Assembly: GCA_001800315.1 (NCBI GenBank)
Contig: MGVE01000005.1
Span: forward strand, 1 to 13,908
Length of the DNA: 13,908 bases
Direction of reading: 5' to 3'
DNA from: Elusimicrobia bacterium RIFOXYA2_FULL_47_53
GTDB taxonomy: Bacteria; Elusimicrobiota; Endomicrobiia; Endomicrobiales; XYA2-FULL-47-53
Below the pieces are notes generated by a model, which saw only the letters and a program-made list of their open reading frames with translations, did not search any database and was not told the DNA's origin. Positions 1 through 13,908 of this stretch are shown in pieces. Numbering within the stretch: position 1 is the first letter of the stretch; each line of letters starts with the position of its first letter. The translations under genes and the position numbers were made by a program.

Positions 1-87
1 GGTCAGTGTCGTTTTGCCGTGGTCCACATGGCCTATCGTCCCAATGTTTACATGCGGTTTCGTCCTGTCAAATTTCGATTTAGACAT
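1..87 (-). CDS. tuf: Elongation factor Tu, N-terminal fragment (cut by window edge)
   Basis: EF-Tu is the GTPase that carries aminoacyl-tRNA to the ribosomal A site. Only the first 29 codons are in the window. They translate to a start [20 protein letters not shown], followed by VDHGKTTLT; the GHVDHGKT stretch is the P-loop (G1) of the GTPase domain and is diagnostic for EF-Tu. The ATG lies at 85-87 and is preceded by a strong Shine-Dalgarno, CAGGAGG on the minus strand (94-100), with a 6-base spacer. It is the last visible gene of the str cluster, 62 bases after fusA. The fragment is intact as far as it goes; the rest lies beyond position 1. Confidence 0.95.
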
Positions 88-149: not shown

Positions 150-2228
150 TCAGCTGGAAGCTTTTTCTAAGATCTTCTCCGCTATCTGGCGCGGCACTTC
201 TTCATAGTGTGACGGTTCCATGTTATAGGTTCCGCGGCCCTGCGTCATGGAACGCAGTATTGTCGCGTAGCCGAACATTTCTGAAAGAGGAACCGTTCCT
301 CTTATATATTGAAGTTTATTTTTTGATTCCATATTCTGTATCTTGCCGCGGCGGGCGTTGAGGTCTCCGATAACATCTCCCATGTAATCTTCCGGGGTAA
401 CCGTTTCTATTTTCATGACCGGCTCTAATATTATCGGGTTGGCTTTCTTGGCTCCGTCTTTCAACGCCATGGAAGCGGCAATCTTAAACGCCATTTCCGA
501 TGAGTCAACTTCATGGAAAGAACCGTCTGTCAAAGTCACCTTAAGGTCAACGAGCGTGTAGCCCGCTATCGCTCCGGAGGAGAGGGCTTCTTTAACGCCC
601 TTTTCAACCGCCGGTATATATTCCTTTGGTATGGCTCCGCCGACGATGTCGTTTTCAAACTCAAAACCTTTGCCGGCTTCCAGAGGCTCTATGGTAAGAT
701 ATACATGGCCGTACTGTCCGCGGCCGCCGGTCTGGCGGATATATTTGCCTTCAACTTCAACTTTCTTTTTGATGGTTTCGCGGTAGGCGACCTGCGGCCT
801 GCCTACATTCGCCTGCACATTGAATTCGCGTTTCATGCGGTCAACGATGATATCCAGGTGAAGCTCGCCCATTCCGCCGATGATAGTCTGCGAAGTTTCT
901 TCGTCGGTCCTGACTCTGAATGTCGGATCTTCTTCCGCGAGGCGGCTGAGAGCCACGCCCATCTTCTCTTCGTCAGCTTTTGACTTGGGCTCAATGGCAA
1001 TATGGATAACAGGGTCGGGAAAATTCATTGACTCAAGAACTATCGGATACTCTTCATCGCAAAGGGTGTCGCCGGTTGAGGTGTGTTTTAAACCTACCGC
1101 GGCCGCGATGTCTCCGGCGTAAACGACTTTAACCTCTTCCCTCTGGTTAGCGTGCATGCGAAGAATTCTTGAGAGGCGTTCCCTGGTCCTGCTTCTTGTA
1201 TTGTACACATAAGAACCGCTTTCAATGGTTCCTGAATATACTCTGAAATATGTGAGCTTTCCGACATACGGATCGGTCTGAATTTTAAATGCCAGCGAGC
1301 TGAATTTTTCTTTATCGTCCGCCGCTCTTGTTTCCTCGGCGTTAGTATCCGGGTTTAGGCCCTTAAGAGGAGGAACATCCAGAGGCGAAGGAAGATAATC
1401 GCAAACCGCGTCAAGAAGAGGCTGAACGCCCTTGTTCTTAAACGCCGTTCCGCAGAGCACGGGGACAATCTTTATCGCCAATGTGCCTTTTCTTATCGCT
1501 CTTTTTATCTGAACAGTGGTTGAGGGTTTGCCTTCAAGAAAATTGTGCATTATTTCTTCGTCGCAGTCGGCAAGCGACTCTATCATCATGTCTCTGTATT
1601 TCTGGGCATCGGCTTTGAGGTTTTCGGGGATATCAACGACTTCAAATTTCGCTCCGAGTTCCTCGCCGTGCCATAAATGCGCTTTCATTTCCACTAAATC
1701 AATTATGCCTTCAAATTTTTCCTGCTGTCCGACCGGTATCTGTATAGCCACGGGATTCGCTGCCAGGCGGCTTTTCACGGAATCAATGAGCATATAGAAA
1801 TCCGCGCCCACTTTATCCATTTTGTTTCCGAACACAAGCCTGGGAACGCCGTATCTGTCGGCCTGGCGCCAAACGGTTTCCGACTGAGGCTCCACTCCGT
1901 TGCCGGAATCAAAAACCACAACCGCGCCGTCAAGCACTCTTAAGCTGCGCTCCACTTCTACGGTAAAATCAACATGGCCCGGGGTATCTATGATGTTGAA
2001 CTGGCAATCGCGCCATTTGCAGTAGGTGGCGGCCGAAGTAATGGTTATTCCGCGCTCCTGCTCCTGAGCCATCCAGTCCATGGTGGCGGCGCCTTCGTGC
2101 ACCTCGCCGATCTTGTGGATCCTGCCGGTATAGTAAAGTATTCTTTCGCTGGTAGTCGTTTTGCCCGCGTCTATGTGCGCCACGATGCCAATATTTCTTA
2201 TTTTGTCTAACGGAAACTCTCTAGTCAT
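150..2228 (-). CDS. fusA: Elongation factor G
   Basis: EF-G is the cytoplasmic GTPase that drives translocation of tRNA and mRNA through the ribosome and works with RRF in ribosome recycling. The 692 residues match the family's usual length of about 690-700. The GTPase motifs are all present: P-loop [10 protein letters not shown] (residues 17-26), the switch [11 protein letters not shown] (59-68), DTPGHVDF (81-88), NKMDK (135-139) and GTAFKNKG further on. Domains II to V follow without interruption, including the domain IV segment [20 protein letters not shown] and the C-terminal domain V ending near EKILEKASS. The start is fixed by the conserved [20 protein letters not shown] opening. Its ribosome binding site is weak: only AGAGAG at 2239-2244, 10 bases ahead of the ATG. 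It lies between rpsG and tuf, the classic str order. Confidence 0.98.
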
Positions 2229-2271: not shown

Positions 2272-2291
2272 AAATCTCAAATTTGAGATTT
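2272..2291. repeat. 20-bp perfect palindrome in the rpsG-fusA spacer (copy 1)
   Basis: The sequence AAATCTCAAATTTGAGATTT is its own reverse complement. The identical 20 bases occur at 3234-3253 in the rpoC-rpsL spacer. As RNA it could form an 8-bp stem with an AATT loop. No U-tract follows on the minus strand, so it is not a clear terminator. It lies 5 bases after the rpsG stop codon. It reads as a dispersed intergenic palindromic repeat. Confidence 0.75.
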
Positions 2292-2296
2292 CGCGG

Positions 2297-2776
2297 CTAC
2301 CAACGGTAATGAGCAAACGCTTTATTGGCCTCAGCCATCTTGTGCGTGTCTTCTCTCTTTTTCATTGAGGCGCCTTCTTTTTTGCTTGAATCCATAAGTT
2401 CCTGGGCGAGCCTTTCGTGCATAGGCTTGCCGGTCTTGGCTCTTGAATTTGTAAGTATCCAGTGTATCGCGAGAGTAGAAGAACGAAGAGGCGGCACTTC
2501 CATGGGAACCTGGTAAGTGGCTCCGCCGACACGCCTGGGCCTGCATTCCACAAGCGGGCGGACATTTTCTATCGCTCTGTTGAAAACAGCGAGCGGCTCT
2601 TCTTTCATCTTTTCCTTTACTATCTCCAGCGCGCTGTAAAATATTTTTTCTGCGATGCTCTTCTTGCCCTGGATATTAAGCCTGTTGATAAAGCGGGCGA
2701 CCAACACTGAATTGTACTTGTAATCCGGAAGCGGCAGTCCTCTTCTTTCTCTTGGTTTTAGTGCTTTACGCGGCAT
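2297..2776 (-). CDS. rpsG: 30S ribosomal protein S7
   Basis: S7 is a primary assembly protein of the 30S head; it binds the 3' major domain of 16S rRNA and contacts the E-site tRNA. The product has 159 residues, against a usual length of about 156. Family signatures seen are the N-terminal [44 protein letters not shown], the beta-hairpin segment [19 protein letters not shown] and the C-terminal [22 protein letters not shown]. The start at 2774-2776 has a good Shine-Dalgarno, AGAGGA (785-790 in the 2700s), with an 8-base spacer. It is 48 bases after rpsL. In the classic str operon S7 represses its own translation; no matching operator structure was identified in the rpsL-rpsG gap here. Confidence 0.97.
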
Positions 2777-2824: not shown

Positions 2825-3214
2825 TTATTTCGCGGCTGCTGCGGCTTTCGGCTTCTTTGCTCCGTATTTGCTTCTTCCCTGCCTGCGGCCGTCAACTCCG
2901 GTAGCGTCAAGAGTTCCGCGGATAATGTGATAACGCACGCCGGGCAGATCTTTCACGCGGCCGCCGCGGATCATGACTATTGAATGCTCCTGGAGGTTAT
3001 GTCCCACGCCCGGAATGTAAGCCGTGACTTCATAATTTGAAGAGAGCTTGACCCTGGCGACTTTTCTTAAAGCTGAATTCGGCTTTTTCGGGGTTGTGGT
3101 ATAAACCCTTGTGCAAACTCCGCGCCTCTGAGGGCATTCTTTTAACGCCGGGGATTTAGTTTTTCTGATGCTTTGCTGCCTACCATGAGCGATCAACTGG
3201 TTAATTGTTGGCAT
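2825..3214 (-). CDS. rpsL: 30S ribosomal protein S12
   Basis: S12 sits at the 30S decoding centre and controls accuracy; it is the classical streptomycin target. The product has 129 residues, slightly longer than the usual 124 or so because of an Ala/Lys-rich tail ([12 protein letters not shown]). The core is highly conserved: [26 protein letters not shown] and [26 protein letters not shown]. Lys43 and Lys88 (counting Met1), where streptomycin-resistance changes usually occur, are wild type, and Asp89, the site methylthiolated in many bacteria, is present. The ATG at 3212-3214 follows GAGGA (3219-3223) with a short 4-base spacer. It directly follows rpoC, so the str genes are appended to rpoBC. 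Confidence 0.97.
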
Positions 3215-3233: not shown

Positions 3234-3253
3234 AAATCTCAAATTTGAGATTT
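3234..3253. repeat. 20-bp perfect palindrome in the rpoC-rpsL spacer (copy 2)
   Basis: This is a second exact copy of AAATCTCAAATTTGAGATTT (see 2272-2291), in the 53-base gap between the rpoC stop and the rpsL ATG. The flanks differ apart from a few A/T bases, so the conserved unit is about the palindrome itself. On the minus strand TTTT overlaps its end; a weak termination effect cannot be excluded, but the stem is AT-rich. Confidence 0.75.
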
Positions 3254-3267
3254 CAAATAGATTGTTA

Positions 3268-6200
3268 TTATTTATTTAGGCCCGTTCCAGCCGGAATCAG
3301 GTGACCTATGGAAACATTCTCTTTTAGTCCCCTCAGATAATCTATCTGGCCGGACACAGCAGCTTCCGTAAGGACTCTCGTCGTTTCCTGGAAGGAAGCG
3401 GCCGATATGAACGAGTCGCTTGACAGAGAAGCTTTGGTAATACCGAGCAGTATCGGCTGAGCCACCGGCGCTGTTCCGCCTTTCTTGGCTATGGCGCGTT
3501 TCTCGGCTTCAAAACGGTATTTTGAAATTATTTCGCCGCTCAAAAACGAGCTGTCGCCGGCCAAAGTTATGCGCACATTTGAAAGCATCTGGCGCACTAT
3601 AATTTCAATATGTTTGTCATTAATGGTAACACCCTGCAGCCTGTAAACCTGCTGGATCTCGTTTACAAGATGCTCCTGCACTTCCTTGGGGCCCTTGACC
3701 TTAAGGATGTCGTGAGGGTTGACGGCTCCGTCGGACAACGGCTCGCCGACTCCCACCCTGTCGCCCTCGTAAACCACGAGGTGGCGTCCCGCGGGTATGC
3801 TATATTCTCTTTCCATCTTGGTCTCTTCATTTATTACGACCACCTTGAAACTGCCCTTGGCGGTCGGCTCGCCGAGATGCACGAGCCCGTCTATTTCAGA
3901 AACAACGGCGGCATTTTTCGGCCTGCGCCCTTCAAAAAGCTCGGCGACTCTGGGAAGACCGCCGGTGATATCCTTTGTCTTGGTGACTTCCTGAGGAATT
4001 TTAGCCAGCACATCGCCGGCCTTGATAGCCTCGCCGTCTTCAACCACAAGGTTGGTATCAATCGGGAGCGGATATTCCGAAACATGCTTGCCGTCTTTTT
4101 TGACTACGATTCTGGGGCGGAGCCTTTCGGTCGGATGCTCAATAATTACCCTTTCAATCTGTCCGGTAATTTTGGATTTTTCTTTATGAAGGGTCACGCC
4201 CTCTTTAACATCTTTAAGTTCTATTTTGCCGTCAAATTCCGAGATAATGGGCTTAGAATGCGGATCCCATTCTGCGAGCAATTCGCTTTTGGCGACTTTC
4301 TTGCCGGCGGCAACTTTTATTCTGGCTCCGTAGGGAAGCTGGTAAGTCTCCCTGCGGTGGTTAGGAGTTTCGGAAAGGATCAGCTCGGCGTTTCTGCTGA
4401 CGACTATAAGCTGATTGTCTTTATTCTTAATGGTTCTCATGTTGTGATATTCAACAACACCGTCCTGATCGGCATGCACTTCCGAACGCTTAACGACGCG
4501 GCTCGCGGTACCGCCGATATGGAATGTTCTCAGGGTCAGCTGGGTACCCGGTTCGCCGATGGACTGCGCGGCAATAATACCCACGGCATCTCCGACTTCG
4601 GCTATGCGGCCGGTCGCGGGATGAACACCGTAACATTTAGCGCATACGCCTCTCTCGGCTTCGCAGGTCAGCACGCTTCTGATACCTATTCTTTCAATTC
4701 CGGCCAAAACCATCTTCTTGGCCATCTCAACGGTAATTATTTCGCCTCTTTTTACTATGACTTCTTCTTTAAGCTCACCGTCTTTATCGGGTATAATGCC
4801 TATGATATTATCAAGGGAAACGCGTCCGTAGATGCGCTCTTCCATTTTTTCAATTACTTCATCTCCGCTCTGCAGGGTTCCAACACGGACGCCGTTGATT
4901 GTTTTGCAATCCTCAATGGTTACAACCATGTCATGGCCTACATCAACAAGGCGGCGGGTCAGGTATCCGGCGTCGGCGGTTTTAAGAGCCGTATCGGCAA
5001 GACCTTTGCGTCCGCCGTGAGTGGATATAAAGTACTCAAGCACCGTGAGGCCTTCGCGGAAATTTGAGATAACCGGCGACTCAATGATTTCACCGACTCC
5101 GCCCGTCAGCTTCTTCTGGGGTTTGGCCATAAGACCGCGCATGCCGGCCAGCTGCCTGACCTGCTGGCGCGAACCTCTCGCGCCCGAGTCGGCCATGAGG
5201 AAGATGGAATTGAAACGAGAAGTGCCTTCTTTGTAAGCCACGAACTCGTCTTTCTTCATCTCGTCAAACATTATGTCGGCAACTTTATCGGTGACATGGG
5301 TCCAGATATCTATAACTTTGTTATAACGCTCGCTCTCGGTGATAAGGCCCTGCTTAGCCTGTTTTTCAATTTCCTTTATCTGAACCTGAGCGTCTTTAAC
5401 CATCTTAATTTTCATTGGCGGAATTTTCATGGCGTCTATGGAAATAGAAACGCCGGCCAGCGTCGCGAACTTGTAGCCGAGCATCTTAACTTCGTCAAGA
5501 AGCTGAACCGTGCGCGTATGGCCGATTTCCTTAAAGCATCTCTCTACCAGCTCGGCAAGCTCGCGCTTTCCGACGGTTTTGTTCACATAGCCGAGTTCCT
5601 GCGGTATTACTTCATTGAATATTATTCTTCCTACGGTCGTGTAGTCTTTCCACTTTGTGGCGTCGCCAAGCTCCGCGTCTTTAAGGTGGTCTTCGCGGAA
5701 TTTGTTTCTGCCGAGCACTTTTATTCTGGCGTGCAGGTCAACCTTGCCGCACTGGTAAGCGGTTATGACATCCTGGCTGGAAGAAAATGTTTTTCCCTGT
5801 CCGGCAACGCCTATTTTTTCTTTTGTGAGATAGCAGCTGCCAAGCACTATATCCTGGCTGGGCGTTGCTATCGGACGGCCGGAAGCAGGAGAGAGAATAT
5901 TGTTCGTGGACATCATAAGAACTCTCGCCTCAAGCTGGGCCTCGGTGGAAATGGGAATATGAACGGCCATCTGGTCGCCGTCAAAGTCAGCGTTGAAAGC
6001 CGCGCAGGTCAGCGGATGCAGCTGAATTGATTTGCCTTCTATGAGCACCGGCTCAAAAGCCTGGATGCCGAGCCTGTGAAGCGTGGGCGCGCGGTTAAGC
6101 ATCACCGGGTGGTGCTTGGTAACTCTTTCAAGTATATTCCATACGCCGGAGGATCCGCGTTCAAGCATTTTTCTGGCGGCCTTAAGCGTAACTTTTTCTT

Positions 6201-7398
6201 CTTTTATAAGTTCACGGATAATAAACGGTTTGAAAAGCTCAAGCGCCATGTCCTTGGGCAAACCGCACTGATGCAGTTTGAGGTTGGGGCCTACGACTAT
6301 AACGCTGCGGCCCGAATAATCCACGCGCTTACCGAGTAAATTCTGACGGAAACGGCCCTGCTTGCCTTTCAGGGTGTCTGAAAGAGACTTAAGCGGCCTG
6401 TTCGCCGCGCCTGTAACCGGCCTGGAACGCGACTCGTTGTCTATAAGAGCGTCAACGGCTTCCTGAAGCAGCCTTTTCTCGTTGTTTATCATTACGGCCG
6501 GCGCCTTAAGCTGTTCAATGTGGCGGAGCCTGTTGTTGCGGTTGATTATTCTTCTGTAAAGATCGTTGAGATCAGAGGTGGCGAAACGGCCGCCCTCAAG
6601 AGCGACCAACGGCCTTAAGTCGGGCGGAATAACCGGCAGGACGCTTAATATCATCCACTCGGGCCTTGTGTTGGAGTTCATGAAACCTTCCATGACTCTG
6701 AGCCTGCGGATAAGCCTGGCTCGCTCGGCGTCTGATTTTGTTTTCTTTATTTCGTCATGAAGTTTTTTGCACTCGGGGGCCAGCTCTATTCCTTCAAGCA
6801 GTTTTCTAATGGCTCCGGCGCCTATATCAACTTTCAGCTTATCCTTGAATTCCTGGCGGTATTTCTGGAACTCTTCTTCCGTTATGAGCTGGGTTGACCT
6901 TAACACAACCTTGCCCGTTGAATCTTTCAGATCCTCAAGCACAAGGTAGCGGGTATAATAGATTACTCTTTCAAGATCCGACATCTTCATGTTAAGAATG
7001 ATGCCTATTCTTGAAGGCGGCTTTCTCAGAAACCACAGATGAGCAACCGGCACGGCAAGCTCTATATGGCCGAAACGCTCTCTTCTGACTTTGGCTTCGG
7101 TTACTTCAACTCCGCAGCGGTCGCAGATCTGGCCTTTGTGTTTAATATATTTGTATTTTCCGCAATGGCATTCCCAGTCCTTGGTCGGGCCGAAAATCCT
7201 GTCGCAGAAAAGGCCGTCGCGCTCCGGCTTGAAGGTGCGGTAATTTATGGTTTCGGGTTTTTTAACTTCGCCGAAAGACCATGAACGGATCTGATCCGGG
7301 CTCGCCACGGTGAGCTTGATAGCCTCAAAATCCGTGAAGTTCAGATTAGACACATTCTTCTTTTTGCTGCCTGGTACTGAAAAAGTTAATTTTGCCAT
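3268..7398 (-). CDS. rpoC: DNA-directed RNA polymerase subunit beta'
   Basis: RpoC is the largest catalytic subunit of RNA polymerase. It has 1376 residues, close to the 1407 of E. coli. The N-terminal zinc site is intact (C77, C79, C92, C95, in CHCGKYK and CDRCGVEV). The catalytic Mg-binding motif [12 protein letters not shown] is at 469-480, with the three aspartates at 471, 473 and 475. The bridge helix (about 782-818, [15 protein letters not shown]), the second zinc site (C831, C912, C919, C922) and the trigger loop (about 940-965, [21 protein letters not shown]) follow in order. The C-terminus carries the conserved [28 protein letters not shown] region. The ATG lies 17 bases after the rpoB stop, with GAGG at 7403-7406 and a tight 4-base spacer, so the two genes are co-transcribed and probably translationally linked. 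Confidence 0.98.
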
Positions 7399-7415: not shown

Positions 7416-10400
7416 CTATTTGTCCGCTGTTACTTTCTTTTCTTTATCTTTGCTCTTTTCCGCTTTATCGCCTTTGGCGTGAAGCAGTTCAACATTAAGG
7501 CCAAGCCCCCTGAGTTCGTTGGTCAGCACCTTGAACGATTCCGGTATGCCCGGCTCAGGTATAACTTCGCCCTTGATTATAGCGTCGTACATTTTTATGC
7601 GCCCGGTAACATCGTCCGACTTGACCGTCAGGAATTCCTGGAGCACATGCGCCGCGCCGTAGCCTTCTATGGCCCAGACTTCCATTTCTCCGAACCTCTG
7701 TCCGCCGAACTGGGCTTTTCCGCCGAGAGGCTGACGGGTTATCAGGGAGTACGGGCCTGTGGAACGGGCGTGTATTTTATCTTCAACAAGATGTATCAGT
7801 TTAAGAACATACATGACGCCGATGGTAACCTTTTCAAGGAAAGGCTGTCCTGTGCGGCCGTCAAAAAGCCTTATGCGGCAGTCATCGGTCAGGAGATAGT
7901 CTTCCTCGTATTTCGCCAGGAAATCCTCCAGCTCTTTGCCCTTCATGCCGCGCTTTACCAGCTCATGCTTTTTTTCGTCAAGGAGCTTGGCTTTGGCTTT
8001 CTGAATATACTCTTTGATCTGCTCTTCTTTGGCGCCGTCAAAAACCGGAGTTACCATCTGCACATTAAGGACGCTGGCGGCCCAGCCGAGCATGGACTCA
8101 AGAAGCTGGCCCACATTCATACGGGACGGTATGGAAAGCGGGGAGAGAACCGCGTCAACCGGCGTGCCATCAGGCATATACGGCATATCCTCAACGGGCA
8201 TTATGCGGGCAACGATACCTTTGTTGCCGTGGCGTCCCGCGAGTTTATCTCCGACCTGAACCTTCGTTTTGCTGGCTATATAAACTTTAACGACTTTGTT
8301 TACGGAAACCGTGAGCTCGTCGCCCTTCTTGGCGCGTTCTTTCTCTTTGGCTCTTTCGGCTTTAACCATCTCTTCTTTTTTCTCGTAAAGAGCTTCTATT
8401 TTCGTTTTCTCGGCGCCTTTTGCTTTGGCGAGCTGCTCTTTCCTGTCTCTCTTAAGCTTATCCAGCAGGTCGGAATACATCTGGTCCATGTCTTCCTGCC
8501 GTTTCTTTATTTCTTTATCGGTTAATTTCTCGCGCCTGACGAAAGTGCGCACGCCGATAACTCTTCCGGAAGTTCCGGGAGGGACTCTAAGGGAAGCGTC
8601 CTGCACATCTTCGGCTTTCTTTCCGAAAAGGACTCTTAAGAGCCTTTCTTCGGGCGTTGACTGCTGCTCGCCTTTCGGGGCTGTTTTTCCGACGAGTATG
8701 TCGCCGCGCTGAACCATAGCGCCGATCCTGATAATGCCTTCTTCGTCAAGGTTTAAAAGGTCATCCGCGCCCACATTGGGAATATCGCGGGTGATTTCTT
8801 CCGGCCTGCCTTTGGCTTCGCGGGACTCTGTCTGGAACTCCCTGACATGAATTGAGGTGAACATATCCTCTTTGAGAAGCCTTTCCGAAAGGAGTATGGC
8901 GTCTTCAAAGTTATATCCGTCCCAGGGCATGAAAGCGATAAGTATGTTGTGTCCGAGCGCCAGCTGGCCGCCGGAGGTGCAGGGGCCGTCGGCAATGACA
9001 TCGCCCTTTTTGACCTTCTGGCCTTTGGAGACGATGGGAACCTGGTTAATGCAGGTATCCTGATTTGAACGGACATATTTTTTTAAGCGGTAAACATCTA
9101 TGTGGGGCTTGCCTTCGTCTGACCAGACGCAGATTTCGTCGGCGGAAACGCTCATTACTTCTCCGGAGCGTTTCGCGAGGATAACAACGCCTGAGTCTTT
9201 CGCGACTTTTTCCTCAATACCGGTGGAAACAAGCGGCGGTTCGGCGCGAAGCACGGGAACGGCCTGGCGCTGCATGTTTGAACCCATGAGAGCTCTGTTG
9301 GCGTCGTCGTGCTCAAGGAAAGGTATTAAAGCCGCCGAGATTGATATAACCTGCATGGGCGAAATGTCCATATAGTTAATCTTTGAGGGATCAACCAGAG
9401 GGAAGTCGCCTTTGTAACGGCAGGCCACAAGGTCGCTGGTGAAACGCCCGCCGGCGTCTATCGCGGAGTTTGCCTGAGCGATTATGTTCTCGTCTTCTTT
9501 GTCGGCTGTAAGATATTTGATTTCGTTTGTAACTCTGCCTTTTTCAACTTTGCGGTACGGCGACTCTATCAAGCCGTAGGAGTTGACTCTCGCGTAAGTG
9601 GCCAGAGAGGTTATAAGTCCGATGTTCGGGCCTTCCGGCGTTTCAATGGGGCATATGCGTCCGTAATGGGTATGATGGACATCGCGGACTTCAAAACCCG
9701 CGCGTTTACGGTTCAAGCCTCCCGGCCCGAGCGCGCTTAAACGCCTTTTGTGCGTAAGCTCGGCGAGCGGGTTGGTCTGATCCATGAACTGGGAAAGCTG
9801 GGAAGTTCCGAAGAACTTTCTTATCTGAGACACGAAAGGTGTAATATTGATGAGGCCTCGGGGAGTAACCGTGGATTTGTCCTGCATGTTCATGTGCTCG
9901 CGGACAAGCCTTGCCATCTGCACAAGGCCGATGCGCACCTGATTCTCCAAAAGCTCGCCCACGGAACGGACGCGCCTGTTACCGAGATGGTCTATATCGT
10001 CAACCTGTATTTTAATTGATTTGTCGCCTGACTTATATTCCGACGCGCCGTTGTAAAGCTTGAGCAGGTAGCGGAGCGTGGCCACGACATCCTCTTTGGT
10101 GAGGGTGCGTTTATGGTCGGAAGGCATGTTGAAATCAAACTTCTTTTCCTTCATAAGGTCGGTCATTACCGGGCCGAGCTTTTTGAATATCTTATACCTG
10201 CCGACAAGGCTCAGGTCATAGCGCCTGGTGGACTTGAAAAGCAGTTCGTCTAAGAATCCGGCGGCTCTTTCCTGAATAATGAATTCCTGAGTTTTGAGTA
10301 TCTTGTATATAAGGCTTATGGCTTCTTTTTTGGTTTTTACGGGATCTTTCTTAAGCGTCAGAAGCATTGACGGGTCGCGGTGTATGACGAAGGATTTGAT

Positions 10401-11213
10401 TTTCTTCTCTTTGAGCTTGGGAATGAAATCGTCCTTAATGTCCTTGCCGGCTTCAAAAATAACCTCACCGCTGGACTTGTCAACAATATCCTGGGCGAGG
10501 TAACGGCCGGTTATCGGCTCGGCAGGCAGTTCGTCCACGGACACTTCCTCGTTATCCTGGAAAAGCTCAAGGATTTCGTTGTCGGCTTCAATACCGAGGG
10601 CTCTTAAGAATGTGGTCGCGAGAATTTTTCTTTTACGGTCAATGCGGACATAGATAAGGCTGTTCTGGTCAAACTCAAACTCAACCCAGGCGCCGCGGTA
10701 AGGAATTATGCGGGCAAAATAAATGGGCTTACCGTAAGCGGTAACCCTTTTTTCTTCGTCTTCTTCAAATATAACTCCGGGAGAACGGTGTATCTGGCTG
10801 ACTACGACTCTCTCGGCGCCGTTAATGATAAATGTCGCCGTTTTCGTCATAAGAGGAATATCGCCGAAATACACTTCCTGCTCGGCCAATTCCTTCTCTT
10901 TTCCGTTTTCCTGTTTCTGGATAAGGCGCAAAAGAACTTTCAGAGGCGCGGAATAATTCGCGTCTCTGGCAATTGACTCGCCCACGGAATATTTAGGGTC
11001 TCCGAGTGTATAGGAGACAAATTCCATGGTGAGGCTTCCGTCGGAATTAGTCAGGGGGAATACATCTCTGAACGCGCCCTGAAGGCCGTGAGGCTTTCTT
11101 TTTTCCGAGGGAACATCCTGCTGCAGAAACTCAGCAAAAGACTCGCTCTGCATTTCTAACAGAAGTGGCGGCTCCGTTATGGGAGCTATGCGGCCGAAGT
11201 TAACTTTTTTCAT
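7416..11213 (-). CDS. rpoB: DNA-directed RNA polymerase subunit beta
   Basis: RpoB is the second catalytic subunit of RNA polymerase and the rifampicin target. It has 1265 residues. The opening [19 protein letters not shown] supports the ATG at 11211-11213. The rifampicin cluster is at residues 467-498 (9735-9815 holds its main part); the key residues Gln475, Asp478, His488, Arg491 and Ser493 are of the sensitive type, with Ala484 where E. coli has Ser522. Active-site lysines lie in [12 protein letters not shown] (K989, K998). Residues about 896-966 form a Lys/Glu-rich, probably coiled-coil insert, and the last 20 or so residues are a Lys-rich tail. No Shine-Dalgarno is visible: the leader is A-rich (TATTAAAAAAACT before ATG). 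The gene has its own promoter at 11242-11270 and is followed directly by rpoC. Confidence 0.98.
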
Positions 11214-11241
11214 AGTTTTTTTAATAGGAACAAGAAACGAT

Positions 11242-11270
11242 ATTGTATTGATTTTTTAAGATAATGTCAA
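11242..11270 (-). promoter_or_regulatory. Strong sigma70-type promoter for rpoBC
   Basis: On the minus strand TTGACA (11265-11270) and TACAAT (11242-11247) are separated by exactly 17 bases, a consensus -35 and a five-of-six -10. The predicted start of transcription is near 11235, giving a leader of roughly 22 bases ahead of the rpoB ATG. A second TTGACA lies just upstream (11280-11285), with TATCTT at 11258-11263 at a 16-base spacing, a possible overlapping weaker promoter. It sits directly after the rplL terminator hairpin, so it would restart transcription for rpoB and the genes beyond. Confidence 0.8.
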
Positions 11271-11371: not shown

Positions 11372-11764
11372 TTATTTAAATTCAACTGTCGCGCCGGCTT
11401 CGGCAAGTTTCTTTTTCATTTCCTCAGCCTGCTCTTTAGTTGCATTTTCTTTTACTGTTTTGGGAGCACCGTCAACAAGATCTTTCGCTTCTTTAAGGCC
11501 AAGGCCGGTAAGTTCGCGAACGACTTTAATTACGGCGATTTTGTTTGCTCCGGCGCCGGTAAGAACAACATTGAATTCAGTTTTTTCTTCCGCTGCCGCT
11601 CCGCCTGCCGCCGCTCCGCCTGCTGCTGCCGGCGCGAAAGCCATGGGGGCCGCTGCTGTAACTCCGAATTTCTCCTCAAGAGCCTTCACAAGCTCTGAGA
11701 GCTCAAGCACCGACATTGATGAGATTGCCTGGATCATTGCGTCTTTGCTAAGTGTTTCTGCCAT
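11372..11764 (-). CDS. rplL: 50S ribosomal protein L7/L12
   Basis: L7/L12 forms dimers on L10 to make the ribosomal stalk that recruits and stimulates EF-G, EF-Tu and other translational GTPases. I take the start at 11762-11764 ([10 protein letters not shown]), giving 130 residues. The ATG five codons upstream (11777-11779) lies inside the Shine-Dalgarno itself: GGAGG at 11773-11777 sits 8 bases before the chosen start. The N-terminal dimerisation domain covers about residues 1-33, then an Ala/Gly-rich flexible hinge ([19 protein letters not shown]), then the conserved C-terminal domain with [20 protein letters not shown] and [16 protein letters not shown]. It follows rplJ by 89 bases and is the last gene before the terminator at 11291-11353. 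Confidence 0.96.
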
Positions 11765-11782
11765 TTTCTTTTCCTCCATTTA

Positions 11783-11829: not shown

Positions 11830-11864
11830 TTTCCACTTACCGCTTACCGCCTATCACTTACCAC
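11830..11864 (-). repeat. Degenerate heptamer tandem array overlapping the end of rplJ
   Basis: Reading the minus strand, five 7-base units run without gaps: GTGGTAA, GTGATAG, GCGGTAA, GCGGTAA, GTGGAAA (consensus G-T/C-GGTAA). The first unit and part of the second encode the last residues of rplJ (the Ser codon end, Gly and Lys) and the second supplies its TGA stop. The rest lies in the rplJ-rplL spacer. Similar heptamer-type short tandem repeats occur in intergenic DNA of various bacteria; this one intrudes into a coding end. Confidence 0.7.
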
Positions 11865-12378
11865 TGCCTTTTTGATTTTTTATCGCGTCAAGCGCGTAAA
11901 CAACTTTTCTCAACGGGCCCTGCAACACATTGACTATGCCGTACAGAGGCGATTTTATCGCGCCTACCGCCTTGGCGATAAGCTGTTCTCTTGACGGTAA
12001 TCCTGCCAGCGACTTAACTTCCTGAGCGGAAATGATCTTTGTTCCGAGCAATCCGGCCTTTACTTTAAGTTTCGCGTGCTCTTTGCTGAAATCAACAAGA
12101 ACTTTCGCGGCGCCTACGGGATCGCCTTTTTCAATAGCGATGGCGGTAGGGCCTTCAAAATATTTGGAAAACTCTTCCAGCCCCATTTCCTTTAAAACCT
12201 TGATGGTAAGGGTGTTCTTTACGACCTTATACTCGCACTTAAGTGGACGAAGCTTAGAGCGCAGCTCGTTAAGCTCGGCAACGGTAAGGCCCTGGTATTC
12301 CGTAAGGATGATACCGTTGTTGTCTTTCATGCTGACAGTAAGATTTTTTACTATTTCTTCTTTTTGTTTGTTGGGCAT
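11854..12378 (-). CDS. rplJ: 50S ribosomal protein L10
   Basis: L10 anchors the L7/L12 dimers to 23S rRNA and, with L12, represses its own operon. I take the start at 12376-12378 (MPNKQKEEIVKNLT), giving 174 residues, within the family range of about 165-175. It is preceded by AGAGG (12387-12391) with an 8-base spacer. An upstream in-frame ATG (12397-12399) would read through this Shine-Dalgarno and lies next to the attenuator U-tract, so it is rejected. The globular rRNA-binding domain includes TEYQGLTVAELNELRSKLR and KVVKNTLTIKVL; the long C-terminal helix that binds L12 dimers is SPLYGIVNVLQGPLRKVVYALDAI. The final GSGK and the stop come from a heptamer repeat array. Upstream lies its leader at 12401-12510. 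Confidence 0.96.
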   Translation of the reverse strand: MPNKQKEEIVKNLTVSMKDNNGIILTEYQGLTVAELNELRSKLRPLKCEYKVVKNTLTIKVLKEMGLEEFSKYFEGPTAIAIEKGDPVGAAKVLVDFSKEHAKLKVKAGLLGTKIISAQEVKSLAGLPSREQLIAKAVGAIKSPLYGIVNVLQGPLRKVVYALDAIKNQKGSGK

Positions 12379-12400
12379 TTTAATAACCTCTGATAGCAAT

Positions 12401-12431
12401 AAAAAAAACTTCTCTCGAGTAAGAGAAGTTT
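12401..12431 (-). terminator. Attenuator hairpin with U-tract before rplJ
   Basis: On the minus strand AAACTTCTCT and AGAGAAGTTT form a perfect 10-bp stem around a six-base loop (TACTCG, 12416-12421), and its 3' arm runs straight into eight Ts (12401-12408). This is a standard intrinsic terminator shape, placed 22 bases before the rplJ start codon and after the L10 leader fold. A competing antiterminator is visible: AGAGGAAGT (12440-12448) can pair with ACTTCTCT (12422-12429), with one bulged base, which would block the terminator's 5' arm. Confidence 0.8.
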
Positions 12432-12439
12432 ATAGATAT

Positions 12440-12510
12440 ACTTCCTCTCTGCCTCGGCAAGCCGTCTTTCCGACGATTAACCCGCCCATGCTGCGGGACT
12501 TGCTGTCTTC
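12440..12510 (-). promoter_or_regulatory. Ribosomal protein L10 leader (autoregulatory mRNA element)
   Basis: The minus strand carries the hallmarks of the L10 leader family: GAAGACAGCAAG (12499-12510) and CTTGCCGAGGC (12451-12461). GCAAG pairs with CTTGC to close a three-way junction. The two inner arms are CCCGC/GCGGG (12493-12497 with 12481-12485) and CGTC/GACG (12472-12475 with 12463-12466). In other bacteria the L10(L12)4 complex binds this fold to shut down rplJL; in Bacillus subtilis it does so by transcription attenuation. The adjoining hairpin at 12401-12431 suggests the same mode here. It also confirms that rplJ is the first ribosomal gene of this unit. Confidence 0.85.
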
Positions 12511-12513
12511 GAC

Positions 12514-12543
12514 TTTGTATTTATTGCGCTTCTTAAATTGCAA
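12514..12543 (-). promoter_or_regulatory. Weak candidate promoter for rplJL
   Basis: TTGCAA (12538-12543) and TACAAA (12514-12519) on the minus strand are 18 bases apart; each matches four of six consensus bases. Transcription would begin near 12507, at the edge of the L10 leader fold, which is rather close. It may be real, or rplJL may rely on read-through from the rRNA operon. Confidence 0.2.
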
Positions 12544-12573
12544 ATTTCAGATTTCCGTGAAAATCTGGAATTT
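12542..12573 (-). repeat. AT-rich hairpin after the beta-barrel gene, related to the 20-bp palindrome
   Basis: AAATTCCAGATTT and AAATCTGAAATTT on the minus strand form a 13-bp stem (one non-Watson-Crick position) around a 6-base loop (12555-12560). The arms resemble the AAATCTCAAATTT arms of the palindromes at 2272 and 3234. It lies 6 bases after the stop codon at 12580. Only a short run of Ts follows (GCAATTT), so termination here would be weak at best. Confidence 0.5.
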
Positions 12574-12579
12574 ATAATT

Positions 12580-13368
12580 TTAAAATTCCACGCTCCAGCC
12601 TACCGAAACACCCGTTTCTCCGAGAGCGCCCGCTTCTATCACCAGCGCTTCTCCCGGCAAAACCTGCAATCTCGCGCCTGCGTACAATCCCGCGTTATCT
12701 TTAAAACCGGATATCGCTGTCGCCGCCGAACGATCGCTCAGTTCCGAATATACCCGGAAAAGCTTAAGCCCTCCGTAGAATTCGGTTCTGCCGAACTTTT
12801 TGCTTATTGACACCGCGGCCTGAAGCCTTGCCAGCTGTAAATTGTCATCAACTGAACTGGGAGCTTCGTCTCCCGCCCTGAAAACCTTCAGAGCGTATGA
12901 ACTGTAATCAAAACCAAGCTCAGCCGATACGGCCGGTGAAACTATTGTGTCGGGAAAAAGCGATTTTCTCATTCCCGCTCCTAAGATTATCCCCGGCTCG
13001 CGCGCGCTTAATTTATTTTTCGCGTCGGATGAAGGAAACTCAAGCTCATAATATCCGCCGCCCGCTTTTAGCCAGTAACCTAAGCCTTCTCCGGGTTTAG
13101 CAAGGTATTTGGCGACAACGCTGTTTGAAAGGCCAGGGGCCTTGACATCGTTTGATACATCGCTTAAATAACTTGAAGCCCCGACTCTTATCTCGTCCCG
13201 GCTGGAAACCCGGAAGCTTAAATCTTCCGACTGCCTGGAGAAATACAAGTTGACGAGTCCGCGGCCCGCGCTGATCTGCGTTGAGGGAATCATCATTTCA
13301 GAAGCATAATTCAAGGAACATGAAATGAATGTTACAAGAACAATGATAAATACTTTTCTGTTTATCAT
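12580..13368 (-). CDS. Unrecognised exported protein, probable outer-membrane beta-barrel
   Basis: I do not recognise the family. The 262-residue product opens with a signal peptide: positive INRK, a hydrophobic core VFIIVLVTFI (6-15), then SCSLNYASE. Cleavage by signal peptidase I near residue 22 is likely; Cys17 after FIS is a poor lipobox. The mature part has no other membrane helix and shows alternating, aromatic-rich strands separated by polar turns, for example GYWLKAGGGYYELEF and TEFYGGLKLFRVYSEL. It ends in GVSVGWSVEF, a C-terminal Phe with alternating hydrophobics like the beta-signal read by the BAM machinery. The ATG lies 12 bases after the 5S gene with no Shine-Dalgarno; no other start keeps the signal peptide. 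It sits between the rRNA operon and rplJ, where rplK-rplA often lie. Confidence 0.75.
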   Translation of the reverse strand: MINRKVFIIVLVTFISCSLNYASEMMIPSTQISAGRGLVNLYFSRQSEDLSFRVSSRDEIRVGASSYLSDVSNDVKAPGLSNSVVAKYLAKPGEGLGYWLKAGGGYYELEFPSSDAKNKLSAREPGIILGAGMRKSLFPDTIVSPAVSAELGFDYSSYALKVFRAGDEAPSSVDDNLQLARLQAAVSISKKFGRTEFYGGLKLFRVYSELSDRSAATAISGFKDNAGLYAGARLQVLPGEALVIEAGALGETGVSVGWSVEF

Positions 13369-13380
13369 ATAAAATTTAAC

Positions 13381-13497
13381 CCCGGCGGCGACCTACTCTT
13401 CCAGAACCCTGCGGTACTAGTACCATCGGCCCTGGCAGGCTTAACTTCCGAGTTCGGAATGGGATCGGGTGTGACCCTGCCGGAAAAACCACCGGGA
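13381..13497 (-). rRNA. rrf: 5S ribosomal RNA
   Basis: The minus strand holds the conserved 5S core CCGATCCCATTCCGAACTC followed by GGAAGTTAAGC, and the ends CCCGGTGG (13489-13496) and CCGCCGGG (13381-13388) pair to form the terminal helix I. The 117-base length is normal. Ends are set from helix I and may be off by one or two bases. No intrinsic terminator follows: after the 3' end come GTTAAATTTTAT and the ATG of the next gene. The spacer to 23S (13498-13577) is AT-rich, about 80 bases, and holds no tRNA. Confidence 0.95.
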
Positions 13498-13577
13498 ATA
13501 ATTTAAAATTTATGCTGTTTTAATAGTTTCGGTTAACATGCGTTGTACAAAGATCTATACTGCTGGATTAAAAAATA

Positions 13578-13908
13578 TGGCCAAGCCAAACGGTCGATTA
13601 GTAATAGTTAGCTCCATGCGTTACCGCACTTCCACTTCTATCCTATCAAACCCATAGTCTATGGGTGACCTTTAGGGAAACCTAATCTTGGGGTAAGTTT
13701 CACGCTTAGATGCTTTCAGCGTTTATCTTGTCCGCATATGGCTACCCGGCTATGCTCCTGGCGGAACAACCGGCACACCAGAGGTGCGTTCATCCCGGTC
13801 CTCTCGTACTAAGGACAAATCCCCTCAAGTTTCCTGCGCCCACGGTAGATAGAGACCGTACTGTCTCACGACGTACTGAACCCAGCTCACGTACCCCTTT
13901 AATTGGCG
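13578..13908 (-). rRNA. rrl: 23S ribosomal RNA, 3' end (cut by window edge)
   Basis: About 330 bases of the 3' part of 23S rRNA (domain VI and the end of domain V) are present. The sarcin-ricin loop AGTACGAGAGGACC, the site where EF-G and EF-Tu act, is at 13797-13810 on the minus strand. The stretch GGGTTCAGTACGTCGTGAGACAG lies just upstream (about 13859-13885), and the conserved GAGCTAACTATTACTAATCG tail is near the 3' end. The 3' end is placed near 13578, before an A/T-rich run, to within a few bases, because the pairing 5' end lies outside the window. Confidence 0.95.

Follow-up and report, generated by a model that had tools for sequence, protein, structure and literature searches.

A predicted outer-membrane β-barrel gene at the junction of the rRNA operon and rplJL-rpoBC in Elusimicrobiota

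Here we analyzed a window of 13,908 nt from Elusimicrobia bacterium RIFOXYA2_FULL_47_53, which is the whole of C5, one of 20 contigs in a genome of 2.41 Mb. A gene for a predicted outer-membrane β-barrel in this window belongs to a phylum-wide junction of the rRNA operon with rplJL-rpoBC, a context that the initial annotation of this DNA missed. We consider it probable that the arrangement is an ancestral rrn-omp-rplJL-rpoBC unit in which read-through from the rRNA supplies the barrel mRNA. It is an open question how bacteria keep envelope growth in step with ribosome synthesis, and separate regulators are the usual explanation. If the reading is true, the order of the genes would by itself link rRNA to an outer-membrane protein, the ribosomal stalk, and RNA polymerase, and one of the cell's busiest transcripts would also feed the envelope. 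The phylum is little studied, but it has cultured members. We found no paper on the 5S-barrel-rplJ linkage in the open literature, with subscription journals mostly outside the search, and novelty is thus not proven.

Layout of the window and the 5S-barrel gap

All genes of the window lie on the minus strand, in the order 23S 3′ end, 5S, an 11-nt gap, a 262-aa ORF, the L10 leader, rplJ, rplL, rpoB, rpoC, rpsL, rpsG, fusA, and the start of tuf:

13577-13908, minus strand: 23S rRNA 3′ end (Rfam RF02541, model positions 2582-2925); the window and contig end here
13503-13513, minus strand: predicted 5′ arm of the pre-5S stem (MFE fold), pairing with 13369-13379
13380-13496, minus strand: 5S rRNA (RF00001, 97.8 bits), the sole copy found in its own genome
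13369-13379, minus strand: 11-nt gap from 5S to ATG, predicted 3′ arm of the pre-5S stem (sequence and fold)
12580-13368, minus strand: predicted ten-stranded outer-membrane β-barrel gene, 262 aa, signal peptide, ATG start (ORF, AlphaFold2 model, OmpT/OpcA fold, orthologues)
12393-12530, minus strand: autoregulatory ribosomal protein L10 leader (Rfam RF00557, 49.8 bits, gathering threshold 44)
12406-12431, minus strand: terminator-like hairpin and T-run within the L10 leader, a probable attenuator (11-pair stem and T tract)
11854-12378, minus strand: rplJ, ribosomal protein L10 (PF00466 match at 12082-12378)
11372-11779, minus strand: rplL, L7/L12 (ORF and sequence)
11242-11270, minus strand: sigma-70-like promoter for rpoB, TTGACA-17-TACAAT, 11/12 (promoter scan)
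7416-11213, minus strand: rpoB (ORF of 1265 aa)
3268-7398, minus strand: rpoC (ORF of 1376 aa)
2825-3214, minus strand: rpsL, S12 (ORF)
2297-2776, minus strand: rpsG, S7 (ORF)
150-2228, minus strand: fusA, EF-G (ORF)
1-87, minus strand: tuf (EF-Tu) 5′ end, cut by the contig end (sequence)

The initial annotation had placed a same-strand gene 12 bases after 5S, at the tail of the rRNA operon, with neither a terminator nor a Shine-Dalgarno (SD) sequence before it. This description holds, with the gap being 11 nt by the Rfam boundary (TTAAATTTTAT) and the ORF running from 13368 to 12580. Scanning the minus strand gave no terminator-like match in the gap that separates 5S from the ORF, and TTAAATTTTAT contains no SD. 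The only purine run near the ATG is the GGGG that ends 5S, about 12 nt before the start codon and inside 5S helix I; it pairs with the anti-SD at -5.7 kcal. The rRNA operon that ends in this 5S appears to be single-copy. A DNA query found one copy in its own genome, and this query was used because the LSU/SSU family search is insensitive to fragments and missed the window's 332 nt of 23S. Nearly every genome of the survey described below has one 5S match.

A consensus scan of the minus strand between 13908 and 11300 found no sigma-70-like site. The first matches are two sites before rpoB (11285 and 11270), the best being TTGACA-17-TACAAT. The rpoB start (window 11213-11270) is without a clear SD, and its own strong promoter lies about 29 nt 5′ of the start codon. 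The RF00557 covariance match ends 14 nt 5′ of rplJ and scores above the gathering threshold, placing the leader in the L10 leader family. As in the rplKAJL-rpoBC (beta) operon, the order rplJ-rplL-rpoB-rpoC is preceded by an L10 leader with a terminator-like hairpin and followed by the str genes and tuf. Unlike in the beta operon, the rRNA operon and barrel gene lie upstream. As the initial annotation had recognized, the barrel gene fills the slot where L11-L1 often precede L10; nusG-rplK-rplA are elsewhere: contig C6 of the same genome begins with them, and in another genome (G003) they are moved downstream of tuf. A palindromic AT-rich repeat, CAAATTTGAGATTT, also occurs in three intergenic gaps of the window (2272-2291, 3234-3253, and 12541-12554), with 5 matches against 0.28 expected.

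Gene order across the phylum

A close-relative search of genome contigs with the single window protein returned nothing, and the same search with the family alignment returned three Elusimicrobia/Endomicrobiales records. The survey of the phylum used a profile built from five sequences, the window protein and four relatives in its order. In each of these four (41-44% identity), the gene lies just after 23S-5S and is followed by rplJ. The profile search placed barrel relatives in 53 of 340 genomes and in 44 of the 100 genera of the phylum. We read 49 loci; two distant, off-slot loci (L050, L051) and three weak matches (G004, G022, G196) do not count as slot members. The barrel gene is directly preceded by 5S on the same strand in 39 of them, and rplJ follows on the same strand within 400 nt in 47. 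The loci without an upstream 5S are mostly contig-end cuts or members of family f14, discussed below. From the barrel stop to rplJ the median distance is 28 nt, with 2-50 nt in 35 loci. Members of the window's order have a gap of 140-310 nt here, which in the window and L002 contains the L10 leader. The initial annotation had asked whether relatives keep the gene beside 5S. Both close and distant relatives do, and the gene was not found elsewhere in the close ones. Since the arrangement is conserved across the phylum, chance placement is excluded.

The junction itself extends to genomes without the barrel. Among the matches listed, 5S and rplJ on one contig share a strand in 108 of 108 genomes and lie within 2 kb of each other in 95 of the 108. 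The barrel is absent from all members of families f6, f13, f15, and f16 with a measured gap and from some members of f10, f18, and f26. In several genomes lacking it, rplJ begins 39-56 nt after 5S, a distance into which a promoter would hardly fit. Because many lineages have nothing in the slot or have filled it anew, the rrn-rplJ junction appears from these comparisons to be the ancestral feature, with the barrel as its commonest occupant, lost several times (e.g. within f26, f18, and f10). In f6 the slot can hold unrelated genes: those for a 297-aa multi-pass protein (G014), a radical-SAM-like protein (L064/L065), and a secreted protein (L063/L066). The last (L063 562-1470; L066 486-1430) is a different protein of 302-314 aa that occupies the slot in some f6 genomes. 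We considered it as a barrel relative and rejected it, as profiles show no relation (probability 1%).

Upstream, a complete 16S-tRNA-tRNA-23S-5S order precedes the junction in L061 and L062, and L060 has the same order with its 16S cut by the fetched end. Promoter matches occur before 16S in G014, and inspection by eye showed boxA-like sequences ahead of 16S in L061 and L062. Two further features of these rRNA regions were observed. In L005 (460-940), 5S-like remnants broken by short insertions flank the intact 5S, and the last touches the barrel leader. Group I introns lie within the 23S of five Elusimicrobiota genomes (L003 35-310, L021 2903-3142, L040 882-1556, L045 1936-2124, and L049 4529-4787).

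The barrel protein and its riboswitch-controlled orthologues

The window protein has no match in Pfam or NCBIfam, and some of its relatives match OMP_b-brl, Autotransporter, Chlam_OMP, or Legionella_OMP, mostly weakly. AlphaFold2, given the window protein together with three named relatives, produced a model with about ten long strands, a mean pLDDT of 79.3, and a pTM of 0.74; this confident barrel is the best of five models, with the other four at 28-47 pLDDT. Its nearest solved folds are ten-stranded barrels, namely pOmpT (Z 15.6, 216 residues, rmsd 4.0), Pla (15.3), OpcA (14.9), and a designed ten-stranded barrel (14.3), and Foldseek agrees with these matches. The pOmpT alignment fits the omptin type of ten-stranded barrel. 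The hydrophobic N-terminus with its AS/E boundary is conserved across the family, the C-terminus reads GWSVEF, and F262 is nearly invariant. The initial annotation's envelope β-barrel is thus borne out by the predicted fold, an antiparallel barrel, together with the signal peptide and the C-terminal aromatic residue, Phe. The ORF is predicted to encode a ten-stranded outer-membrane barrel with an OmpT/OpcA-like fold. In close pairs of orthologues dN/dS is 0.09-0.21, which points to purifying selection.

The likeness to OmpT and OpcA covers most of the mature chain, but identity is only about 10%. Omptin proteases carry catalytic Asp-His and Asp-Asp pairs. The window protein lacks histidine altogether, and hence the omptin dyad, and no histidine is invariant across the family; it is therefore not an omptin protease. 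OpcA adhesins are ten-stranded barrels with host-ligand-binding loops, and the window protein was compared with them by fold. We also considered an autotransporter β-domain (PF03797). Such domains have twelve strands, a passenger domain, and a helix in the pore. With about ten strands in 262 aa, no passenger, and no PF03797 match, the window protein does not fit, although 3 of 20 barrel family members do match PF03797.

In family f14 (L017, L018, L019, and L024), a c-di-GMP-I riboswitch lies directly upstream of the barrel gene in place of 5S, with rplJ still downstream. A hairpin with a T-run, terminator-like when read by eye, follows the riboswitch and precedes the barrel. In G061 the rRNA is 17 kb distant. 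These orthologues share their upstream element with other c-di-GMP-I riboswitch genes, whereas the window and most orthologues have 5S there. Since f14 has the riboswitch instead of 5S, coupling to rRNA is not essential. The riboswitch suggests that it pays to regulate the supply of this surface protein, which is probably abundant. The phylum thereby offers a natural comparison between a barrel on the rRNA unit, one under a c-di-GMP riboswitch, and its loss.

Read-through, the pre-5S stem, and the translation start

The sequences flanking 5S pair in a covarying stem in many relatives. Over the first 12 flank positions, 44 loci average 9.4 pairs, compared with 5.9 for flanks taken from different loci. 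At least 9 pairs are reached in 31 of the 44 loci, compared with 16% of the mixed-flank combinations. Individual positions have as many as four pair types across 27 distinct loci, with every cell paired; position 8, for example, is T-A in 11, C-G in 9, G-C in 4, and A-T in 3. The flank helix has a z-score of -3 to -7 in most of these 27 loci, and in many loci the 3′ arm leaves no more than a few bases before the barrel start. A pre-5S stem is an ordinary pre-5S processing element. In the window, the MFE fold gives an A-U-rich stem of 10 pairs that ends at the base before the ATG; measured against shuffled flanks, the window's own stem is not significant.

We infer read-through, processing, barrel abundance, and growth coupling as follows. 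The ancestral order of the phylum would have been 16S-tRNA-tRNA-23S-5S, the barrel gene, and rplJ-rplL-rpoB-rpoC-rpsL-rpsG-fusA-tuf on one strand. RNA polymerase leaving the rRNA most likely continues through 5S into the barrel gene. Cleavage at the pre-5S stem would then release 5S and give the barrel mRNA a short 5′ leader, and barrel output would be proportional to rRNA synthesis, i.e. growth rate. Behind the barrel gene, the L10 leader may trim the share of the transcript entering rplJL, and rpoB would draw on an additional promoter of its own. E. coli-type rrn operons with distal tRNA genes likewise carry extra genes after 5S that are transcribed from the rRNA promoters and released by processing, as proposed here. 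The passengers differ, being protein genes in the window (barrel, ribosomal stalk, and RNA polymerase subunits). The fullest form of this reading places rRNA, a major outer-membrane protein, the ribosomal stalk, and RNA polymerase on a single unit through much of Elusimicrobiota, with pre-5S cleavage making the 5′ end of the barrel mRNA and envelope growth hard-wired to ribosome synthesis. We regard this form as possible and put it forward tentatively.

We favor read-through as the simplest reading, since in many lineages a separate promoter would not fit into the gaps. The distance from 5S to the start codon ranges over 11-196 nt; it is 11-35 nt in many loci, and four (the window, L013, L016, and L037) have their ATG at 11-14 nt. 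An inherited neighborhood without coupling seems unlikely. Here the rRNA transcript would end after 5S, and the barrel gene and rplJ would rely on unrecognized promoters within the 23S-5S spacer, 5S, or the barrel gene itself. Rho could terminate transcripts at 5S, or the 23S-5S spacer could contain a promoter invisible to a consensus scan, as such scans miss non-sigma-70 promoters. Gene order may also persist through selection unrelated to co-transcription, and a few loci (L005, L014, and L040) have gaps of 100-196 nt. However, the many short gaps, the close approach of rplJ to 5S where the barrel is lost, the covarying stem that fills much of the gap, and the lack of promoter matches on the minus strand upstream of rpoB all argue against it.

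Barrel starts are weak in several respects. Pairing with the anti-SD has a median of -3.3 kcal at barrel starts compared with -6.0 kcal for rplJ (paired p 0.007, with related loci not independent), under a scoring rule that favors SD detection. GTG or TTG serves as the start in 12 of 42 barrel loci. These features would fit a weaker read-through, with most transcripts ending near 5S and the barrel a low-level product kept low by poor initiation signals (no SD, GTG/TTG, and a few loci without a standard start). We judge this somewhat unlikely. Weak initiation is equally expected on a very strongly transcribed unit, good SD motifs occur in several relatives, and purifying selection has conserved the protein.

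The near-leaderless, SD-less start described in the initial annotation stands for the window, but it does not extend to a general rule. Most other loci have 23-130 nt between 5S and the start, and SD-like motifs are present in several relatives (L002, L003, L004, L026, and L028). The closest relatives do carry such motifs, so the SD-less start is not conserved. By sequence comparison it appears to be a detail of the window's genome and a few relatives rather than a rule of the phylum. The 11-nt gap, the missing SD, the predicted stem ending at the base before the ATG, and the comparable gaps in L013, L016, and L037 could also mean that 5S cleavage yields a truly leaderless or near-leaderless mRNA as a selected control point in the window's genome. 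We find this doubtful given the variable leader, the SD motifs of the closest relatives, and a window stem that does not stand out from shuffled flanks. Four loci (L027, L031, L040, and L044) have a barrel ORF with an intact signal peptide and no ATG, GTG, or TTG where one is expected, possibly starting at ATT, ATA, or CTG.
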